A stretch of DNA of 64,000 nucleotides from Bacteroidales bacterium (lineage in GTDB: Bacteria; Bacteroidota; Bacteroidia; Bacteroidales; UBA932), in the NCBI GenBank assembly GCA_017627955.1, contig JAGAFU010000055.1:60309-124308 (forward strand), read 5' to 3'. The notes beneath the pieces were generated by a model, which saw only the letters and a program-made list of their open reading frames with translations, was not told where the DNA came from and did no database searches. The stretch's first letter is position 1. The number at the start of each line of letters is the position of its first letter. This document shows, piece after piece, positions 38,466 through 40,268 of this stretch. Both the position numbers and the translations under genes were made by a program.

Positions 38466-38611
38466 CCGTGCCCATTAAGGCCGTAATTTCGGCACGGGGC
38501 GATGATACTTCAGTGCTGGTAGATCCTTCGCCGCGCTCAGGATGACAGGGCTTCGCTCAGGATGACAGGGCTTCGCTCAGGATGACAGGCTGCGCTTAGG
38601 ATGACAGCGGG
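38466..38611. repeat. Left flanking repeat of the HEPN/MNT cassette
   Basis: CCGTGCC...GGCACGG hairpin, then GGCGATGATACTTCAGTGCT, then tandem units of CTTCGCTCAGGATGACAGGG. It matches 40096-40202 nearly base for base apart from having two more tandem units. Together the two copies bracket the toxin-antitoxin genes. Confidence 0.85.
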
Positions 38612-38655
38612 ATTGGTCGAGAGGATAGCGACTACATGAGTTGTTTTCGGCAATA

Positions 38656-38687
38656 TTTGTAAAATATTGCCATAATAGTTATATTTG
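38656..38687 (+). promoter_or_regulatory. Promoter of the MNT/HEPN cassette
   Basis: -33 box TTTG (38656-38659), 20-bp spacer and -7 box TATATTTG (38680-38687) form a textbook Bacteroidota promoter. The start codon at 38701 is only 13 nt past the -7 box. Confidence 0.75.
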
Positions 38688-38700
38688 CGAAAACGATAAT

Positions 38701-39468
38701 ATGCGGTTTAAACTGGACATTTCTCCTAAAATGTTGGAGGTTAACGGATTCCTCACATCTCGCTTTGTGGGGATGAATCACTGCATTTCCGGTCTCGGTG
38801 GGAATCTCCTCGTTGAGGTGCCAAAGAATGATGTTGATGAGGTTGCCCGGGAGCTGAAAGCTAATTTTGGAAGAGCGGTAAACATCAAGAAAGCATATCT
38901 GATGATTGATGAACTCACTGATTTTATCCTGGTTAAACCACTTGTCTCTGAAGCTCCTGTTAACTTGCAAGATAGTGTTCCAGTTCCTTCCATTGAGAAG
39001 TTACTTGTCGATCAAGCTTCTGATAAGGAGTACTCATCTGCCTCGAAATCTCTCAACAAGATCTTCCAGAAAGCTTTTGAAACTTACGATGTGAACAAAA
39101 GTAAATTATTGAGATATGCATCCAGAAAAGGAGAGAAAGAAGAGGTCTCGCTGATGATATCCGGGATTGACCGGAATAGAATTGAGGTCGTTAGGATTAT
39201 CCAAGATTATTTACGGGATACTCCCATCATCAAAGCTTGGTTGTTCGGATCTTATGCTCGGATGGAGGAAACAGAAAATAGTGACATTGATATTTTAGTG
39301 GATTTCCAACGTGGTTCAAAGGTTGGACTGCTTCAAATGTCCCAGTTCTCGATCGATCTGGAGCAACGTCTTAAAAAGAGTATTGACTTGGTGGCGGAAG
39401 GTTCTTTGAAGCCTTTTGCGGCAGATAATGTGATGAATGAAAGAGTCTTGATATATGAGAGAACCTGA
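38701..39468 (+). CDS. MntA-type nucleotidyltransferase antitoxin with N-terminal DUF6577/AbiEi-like domain
   Basis: Residues about 170-255 form a minimal nucleotidyltransferase with GSX10DXD (G183, S184, D195, D197) in LFGSYARMEETENSDIDILV and a third acid in SIDLV (D229). In MntA antitoxins this domain AMPylates the HEPN toxin. Typical MntA is only 100-140 aa. Here residues 1-150 form an extra domain (ILVKPLVSEAPVNLQ, VPSIEKLLVDQASDKE, NKSKLLRYASRKGEKEE). From memory this resembles the C-terminal half of DUF6577/AbiEi-like type IV antitoxins, without their N-terminal helix-turn-helix. The start at 38701 is set by the promoter position. The stop overlaps the HEPN gene by 14 nt. Confidence 0.82.
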   Translation: MRFKLDISPKMLEVNGFLTSRFVGMNHCISGLGGNLLVEVPKNDVDEVARELKANFGRAVNIKKAYLMIDELTDFILVKPLVSEAPVNLQDSVPVPSIEKLLVDQASDKEYSSASKSLNKIFQKAFETYDVNKSKLLRYASRKGEKEEVSLMISGIDRNRIEVVRIIQDYLRDTPIIKAWLFGSYARMEETENSDIDILVDFQRGSKVGLLQMSQFSIDLEQRLKKSIDLVAEGSLKPFAADNVMNERVLIYERT

Positions 39469-39805
39469 TAGGGACAAAGGTCGAATTGAGGATATGATAG
39501 AAGCCTCGAATAATGTTATCAGTTTTGTGGATGGTTTATCCTTTATTGATTTTTCAAAAGACAAGCTTCGGTATTATGCTGTTTTGAAAAATGTAGAAAT
39601 TATAGGGGAAGCAGCCTATATGCTGACTAAAGACTTCAGGGATAGCGTCAATTCAATTCCATGGGATGCGGTAATCAAGATGAGGCATATCCTTGTGCAT
39701 GGATACGCCTCAGTCCTTCCTGAAGTTTTATGGGATACCGCTGTTAACGATGTGCCCTGGTTAAAACGGGAACTTGACAAGCTCTTTGATGAGTTCCCTA
39801 AGTAG
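39455..39805 (+). CDS. HepT-like HEPN toxin (DUF86)
   Basis: HepT is a HEPN ribonuclease or tRNA-targeting toxin neutralised by AMPylation of a tyrosine by MntA. The 116-aa helical product has the RX4HXY motif exactly: R77, H82 and Y84 in KMRHILVHGYASV. The helix KNVEIIGEAAYMLTKDF is also typical of DUF86. Length matches the family. It overlaps the end of the upstream nucleotidyltransferase by 14 nt, the normal antitoxin-toxin coupling. Strong family assignment, activity inferred. Confidence 0.92.
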   Translation: MREPDRDKGRIEDMIEASNNVISFVDGLSFIDFSKDKLRYYAVLKNVEIIGEAAYMLTKDFRDSVNSIPWDAVIKMRHILVHGYASVLPEVLWDTAVNDVPWLKRELDKLFDEFPK

Positions 39806-40095: not shown

Positions 40096-40202
40096 CCGTG
40101 CCCGTTGAGGCCGTAATTCCGGCACGGGGCGATGATACTTCAGTGCTGGTAGATCCTTCGCTGCGCTCAGGATGACAGGGCTTCGCTCAGGATGACAGCG
40201 GG
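40096..40202. repeat. Right flanking repeat of the HEPN/MNT cassette
   Basis: Direct copy of 38466-38611: hairpin CCGTGCC/GGCACGG, GGCGATGATACTTCAGTGCT, TAGATCCTTCG and two CTTCGCTCAGGATGACAG units. It differs from the left copy by a few substitutions and fewer tandem units. Confidence 0.85.
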
Positions 40203-40268
40203 TGCATTTGGAAAAGACGTTCTAATTGCCTAAATTAGCATTTCCAAGGAAGTAATCAACGTTTTATA

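Follow-up and report, generated by a model that had tools for sequence, protein, structure and literature searches.

A nucleotidyltransferase antitoxin fused to an AbiEi domain in Bacteroidales, and a promoter palindrome kept where the winged helix is absent

What does an AbiEi domain do when it forms half of an MntA-like antitoxin? The question is raised by a locus in a window of 64,000 nucleotides, the whole stretch of DNA analysed here, from a Bacteroidales bacterium. An initial annotation, made from the letters of the window, had described an MntA/HepT toxin–antitoxin pair whose antitoxin begins with about 150 extra residues resembling AbiEi, and had proposed a hybrid of two toxin–antitoxin types. 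Both open reading frames lie where it had placed them, and the GSX10DXD motif of the antitoxin and the RX4HXY motif of a canonical HepT are intact (Table 1).

Table 1. Features of the module and its surroundings, in window coordinates
Feature	Position	Strand	Basis
Fusion antitoxin, AbiEi C-terminal domain and minimal nucleotidyltransferase, P0001, 255 aa	38701..39468	+	Pfam, PADLOC
AbiEi/DUF6577 domain without winged helix, residues 36-154	38806..39162	+	Pfam 7.1e-26, PADLOC AbiEi 8.1e-29
Minimal nucleotidyltransferase domain, residues 167-254	39199..39462	+	Pfam Polbeta 3.3e-14
GSX10DXD motif, antitoxin residues 183-197	39247-39291	+	motif read in sequence
HepT ribonuclease-like toxin, P0002, 116 aa	39455..39805	+	Pfam HepT-like 2.3e-20
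RX4HXY motif, HepT residues 77-84	39683-39706	+	motif read in sequence
Palindromic putative operator GGCAATATTT-gta-AAATATTGCC	38649..38671		sole site, conserved in relatives
Putative -7 promoter element TATATTTG	38680..38687	+	read in sequence
Direct repeat, 103 nt, upstream copy	38466..38568		brackets module
Direct repeat, 103 nt, downstream copy, 96% identical	40096..40198		brackets module

The DUF6577 match of P0001 spans profile positions 76–199 of 204. Since it begins only at position 76, the N-terminal third of the profile, which contains the winged helix in the long relatives described below, is missing, and P0001 thus has no N-terminal winged helix of the AbiE type. This agrees with the description of the N-terminal part as AbiEi-like without a helix-turn-helix. 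Residues 1–153 alone also matched DUF6577 (1.1e-25), and the PADLOC AbiEi match covers residues 35–154. The similarity claimed for the extra residues is therefore real, but it extends over only ∼120 of the ∼150, the number that align to the profile. Among solved structures, the best matches of the antitoxin profile were minimal nucleotidyltransferases (1wot, 6.7e-12; 9xbd, 0.00027; 5yep, 0.0085), with no AbiEi-like structure up to an E-value of 1; HepT gave no match to a solved structure at an E-value of 0.1, and a search of PHROGs gave no match. In NCBIfam, P0001 scored 45.2 bits against an MntA equivalog cut-off of 60 and P0002 scored 24 bits against a HepT equivalog cut-off of 60; both scores fall below the cut-off and count against the reading that we favour. 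The antitoxin and HepT frames share 14 bases, and the module is AT-rich (40.4% G+C, compared with 53.5% for the window). From reading the translations, we take its neighbours to be a ribosomal-protein cluster, rpsF-rpsR-rplI, on one side and a flavin-reductase-like gene on the other.

The accessible part of PMC7641770 gives MNT antitoxins as ∼80–150 amino acids long and without a DNA-binding domain, in keeping with the annotation's statement that known MntA proteins are short, and has the known ones AMPylating HepT. The window locus resembles the MntA/HepT systems of that source (HEPN-MNT, type VII) in having the antitoxin gene first, a GSX10DXD antitoxin and a HepT of the RX4HXY type, but its antitoxin also carries an AbiEi domain, together with an AbiEi-type palindrome. 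With AbiE (AbiEi/AbiEii, type IV) it shares the DUF6577/AbiEi domain and an inverted repeat in the promoter, here a putative operator. Unlike AbiE, it has HepT and not AbiEii beside the antitoxin, the antitoxin of the fusion bears a nucleotidyltransferase, and the window form has no winged helix. We examined 18 loci with stand-alone DUF6577 genes and scanned the next open reading frame in 15; it was AbiEii in 13, as expected from the claim that AbiEi normally pairs with AbiEii (in L022 and L026 it was a short frame without a match). An AbiEi domain with HepT here, and stand-alone DUF6577 with AbiEii elsewhere, bear out the proposed hybrid of type IV and type VII systems. We found no published account of an AbiEi–MntA fusion in titles and abstract openings, with the subscription literature thinly covered, and no description of it in the available portions of PMC10435456, PMC3710099, PMC7641770, PMC7319586, PMC11586414 and PMC3985639. 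The fusion is apparently undescribed so far; it joins two known toxin–antitoxin kinds and, in our samples, occurs in one family only. A further type of MntA that includes a DNA-binding domain was seen at L029:1495-2037 (− strand), where an Xre-type HTH is joined to a minimal nucleotidyltransferase. It is like the AbiEi fusion in placing a DNA-binding domain before the nucleotidyltransferase and HepT downstream, but the DNA-binding family is another one and there is no AbiEi domain.

A genomic survey for the same fusion gave 103 distinct loci after copies identical across the last 230 residues were dropped, all of them, in the samples searched, from one family of uncultured Bacteroidales. This number rules out an assembly artefact or a chance fusion of reading frames. 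The set comprises 57 long forms with a winged helix, 43 short forms (the window's included) and three truncated forms. GSX10DXD is kept in 102 of the 103; the exception, L170, is also without an intact HepT. Among 101 genomes, the window's and its relatives, 39 matched P0001 at an E-value of 0.001, and both halves of the antitoxin were spanned by seven loci in six genomes. A scan of genome collections gave five further loci, all from Bacteroidales or Bacteroidia MAGs and all with identical copies (last 230 residues) among the genomes of the family. These 12 loci made up the alignment (A1) used as the query for samples of the order, phylum, genus and family. Matches were found in 52 of 393 genomes of the order sample (at 1e-30) and in 3 of 395 of the phylum sample, with both halves in one frame only in the window's genome in either case; at most five candidates were scored per genome in these two samples, and a fusion may have been missed. 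The genus sample gave 77 matches in 400 genomes at 1e-40, among them one cut by a contig end (G1161) and three without the N-terminal part (G1137, G985 and G1124). In the family sample, 30 of 299 genomes matched, with 28 fusions, spread over 4 of 25 genera, and two cases of AbiEi only.

A tree of the AbiEi part showed two changes, and a single fusion clade was not rejected (p-AU 0.129); L174, counted there among 26 ‘stand-alone’ rows, is in fact a fusion truncated at a contig end. The tree of the nucleotidyltransferase part required three changes. Separate origins of the fusion were considered; the AbiEi part is compatible with a single clade.

For the 100 non-truncated fusions, the next gene was a complete HepT in 71 and a broken or absent HepT in 26; three were cut by a contig end, leaving 97 loci that we count as evaluable. 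RX4HXY is present in all 71 complete neighbours. The 26 loci (e.g. L036, L084, L086, L089 and L090) have kept the antitoxin and the palindrome with HepT broken or gone, and in many of those with a broken HepT its first codons persist. The antitoxin thus seems to outlive its toxin where HepT is not intact. In some loci another gene starts at the HepT position: a DUF1016/YhcG PDDEXK nuclease gene at L094:360-1511 (a short form, where the gene opens with the first HepT codons) and at L138:378-1508 (a long form), and a Schlafen/AlbA_2 gene in L151. A conserved third gene in the module was ruled out, as clusters of flanking open reading frames (flanks of 1.5 to 3 kb) joined at most two wingless loci each.

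The putative operator of the window is the only such site, allowing up to three mismatches, both in the window and in its own genome (G000). We take TATATTTG to be a putative −7 element from the Bacteroidetes consensus TAnnTTTG, and the TTTG at 38656-38659, in the middle of the palindrome, presumably fits the −33 element. TAnnTT[TG] follows the palindrome by 8–9 nt in 40 of the 43 wingless loci. Within 110 nt upstream of the antitoxin gene, GGCAA-N12-14-TTGCC was exact in 75 of 100 fusions and had no more than one mismatch in 90; among 1,786 control stretches the corresponding counts were 0 and 19, and among 2,000 shuffles 0 and 6. The long loci L124 and L146 have no convincing palindrome, which counts against our preferred reading. 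Upstream of stand-alone DUF6577 genes the palindrome was exact in 12 of 26 (11 of 25 without L174) and within one mismatch in 15 of 26, whereas MNT-only loci gave no exact copy in 33 and two with one mismatch, so that the layout of the fusion loci is not that of a standard MntA. Given its presence at stand-alone AbiEi genes and near absence at MNT-only loci, the operator was most likely brought in by the AbiEi half; it tracks that half and not plain MntA. All 26 loci without an intact HepT keep the palindrome, 25 of them exactly, and HepT is therefore not likely to be the protein that binds it. A second GGCAA–TTGCC palindrome occurs at the 3′ end of the AbiEi gene at L015:1798 and L018:1773; in L018 this gene is followed by AbiEii.

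At an E-value of 1e-3 a winged-helix model matched 57 of the 57 long proteins and none of the 43 short proteins, which gave only weak hits (E-values of 0.59–1.0). A winged helix hidden upstream in another frame was ruled out, since a search of 800 nt of upstream sequence gave no match at an E-value of 1 at any wingless locus. The short forms are set apart as a group by a branch with full support. They diverge to 42% identity, and 42 of the 43 have the catalytic residues. The tree shows a single change of the winged helix; with the root among the long forms this would be a single loss, and the long form would be the ancestor.

Where a site is present in the long forms (55 of 57), its outer arms read AATAA-TC, with a mean complementarity of 6.78 of 8 positions, and the spacers are 12–14. 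In the short forms, the outer complementarity is 3.4 of 8 positions and TTT/AAA stands beside the core. As the winged helix changed only once on the tree, the match between its presence and that of the outer arms counts as a single event and not as many, which speaks against our preferred reading. The palindrome is found in all 43 wingless loci within one mismatch, exactly in 41, and with a spacer of 13 in all 43. Over 33 clusters of short forms, the information content is 1.96 and 2.00 bits per base in the two arms, compared with 0.38 in the left flank. The search itself relied on the five-base arms; the bases that directly adjoin them on the outside (94% and 97% conserved in the same clusters) and on the inside (94% and 100%) played no part in it. 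A spacer of 13 is also a point of likeness to AbiE; the accessible text of PMC7319586 gives a 13-bp gap within each repeat pair for Rv2827c. As the wingless clade keeps the core, the fixed spacing and the inner arms, the protein that remains, the wingless antitoxin, probably still binds there. It is this part that is surprising, the palindrome outliving the winged helix.

On the evidence of domains and promoters we consider it fairly probable that the locus is a hybrid type IV/VII module, in which the nucleotidyltransferase would AMPylate HepT and the AbiEi half would repress its own operon. HepT would be a HEPN ribonuclease-like toxin, to be silenced by transfer of AMP to Y84, the tyrosine of RX4HXY, as in MntA/HepT. 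The AbiEi half would act as an autorepressor on the palindrome overlapping the promoter, and a falling antitoxin level would derepress the operon. Two toxin–antitoxin types meet in one antitoxin, and, if this reading is true, an enzyme-type, AMPylating antitoxin would thereby gain a transcriptional feedback loop that is missing from ordinary MntA. The initial annotation had foreseen an added binding or sensing step. From the 57 winged relatives and the AbiEi-type operator upstream, autoregulation of the operon is the likely added step; the sensing of a signal found no support, and neither did phage defence by the module, which is possible by analogy only.

The winged helix of the long form would read the outer arms, with the AbiEi C-terminal domain contributing to the GGCAA core. 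We put forward only tentatively, from comparison of the two forms, that the C-terminal domain is a sequence-specific reader of GGCAA and that the wingless fusions are autorepressors without a recognised DNA-binding domain. With similar caution, these fusions may be regarded as a natural deletion experiment in which the winged helix and the outer arms are gone and the core stays. The wingless clade makes it testable which part of AbiEi reads DNA, a question for which ∼100 natural variants and the palindromes that go with them are available.

A partial Mantel test, run on 55 long forms together with 15 stand-alone genes (of which L174 is one), was used to assess covariation. The core and inner arms covaried with the AbiEi C-terminal domain (partial r 0.136, p 0.008) but showed no covariation with the winged helix (partial r −0.077, p 0.88), while the outer arms covaried with both the winged helix (partial r 0.265) and the C-terminal domain (partial r 0.208; p 0.001 each); the effects are small and the p values of these four tests are uncorrected. 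The covariation of the outer arms with the C-terminal domain as well counts against our preferred reading. So do published findings: in the portions available of PMC7319586 and PMC3985639, full-length AbiEi was necessary for repression. The same portion of PMC3985639 describes AbiEi as a repressor whose C-terminal domain is needed for repression and is sufficient to neutralise AbiEii, and that of PMC7319586 places basic DNA-binding residues in both domains.

The requirement for full-length AbiEi would suit an unrelated host regulator that reads the palindrome of the wingless clade in trans, the AbiEi remnant having no transcriptional role. We regard this as rather unlikely. The charge of the wingless C-terminal domain, net negative with a median of −4 and a range of −9 to 2, favours such a regulator and counts against binding by the antitoxin itself. 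The distribution of the site argues the other way. A short fusion is present in 42 genomes, and 30 of these were searched for sites and for winged DUF6577 proteins (G1173 is the one high-quality genome outside the 30, and a copy of its locus is also in G871). GGCAAT-N11-ATTGCC was present in 29 of the 30, at 32 sites in all; by coordinates 30 of these lie in promoters of short fusions, the exceptions being G1111:C55 and G1403:C24. The uniqueness of the window's palindrome in its own genome and the want of a conserved third gene within the flanks examined also speak against a regulator in trans. Eighteen of the genomes have a completeness of 90% or more and a contamination of 5% or less. Eight of them, the window's included, have winged DUF6577 proteins, which would provide a candidate reader, but the other ten (G930, G996, G1043, G944, G1001, G1054, G1239, G1207, G845 and G1101) gave no DUF6577 match beyond the short fusions at 1e-5 and no AbiEi_4 match over the cut-off, with one weak match in G1101. 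A winged AbiEi acting in trans was thus not found in 10 of the 18 by searches for DUF6577 and AbiEi_4.

It is still less probable that the AbiEi half is only a protein–protein module, for docking HepT, for oligomerising or for buffering an AbiEii-type toxin elsewhere, with the palindrome an inherited feature of the −33 promoter region. The neutralisation of its own toxin by the AbiEi C-terminal domain, cited above, is in line with such a role, and the −33 element assumed to lie in mid-palindrome may account for the fixed spacing. It does not account for the arms: a promoter element leaves two symmetric GGCAAT arms unexplained, the MNT-only promoters are almost devoid of them, and the 33 wingless clusters keep them with their flanking bases. 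A decaying antitoxin, in which the winged helix was deleted and the remainder is on its way out, is very improbable. In its favour, 26 of the 97 evaluable loci have a broken or absent HepT (wingless fusions account for 13 of the 26) and GSX10DXD is lost in L170, but the wingless form is a single, well-diverged clade that has kept its palindrome throughout and its catalytic residues with one exception, and 28 of its fusions adjoin an intact HepT.

Turning to the edges of the module, mobility on phages or plasmids was considered and rejected: no match over 80% of the query was found in 50,697 phage records or 72,556 plasmid records, and viral contigs, in a pattern-based scan that may miss relatives, gave four relatives of the nucleotidyltransferase half only. 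Among the candidates scored in the window's own genome (40 of 91), full-length copies of the 103-nt repeat occurred only at the window locus; in that genome the 103-nt query gave at least 44 matches, mostly to the part formed by a dispersed element. This short element, around CGCTCAGGATGACAG, has copies at 38530-38611 and 40160-40218 of the window. Locus-specific direct repeats at both module edges, 28–143 nt long and 93.7–100% identical, were seen in L132, L093, L085, L006, L005 and L097, where they end 11–55 nt before the palindrome and start 0–19 nt after the HepT stop codon. The window's repeat sits further out downstream, and the window is not one of these six loci. Edge repeats were found in 6 of 66 own pairs compared with 1 of 4,290 swapped pairs, and exact shared stretches of at least 10 nt near both edges in 7 of 68 compared with 0.6 expected. 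This suggests that, in a minority of loci, the module was inserted as a compact cassette with duplication of the target.
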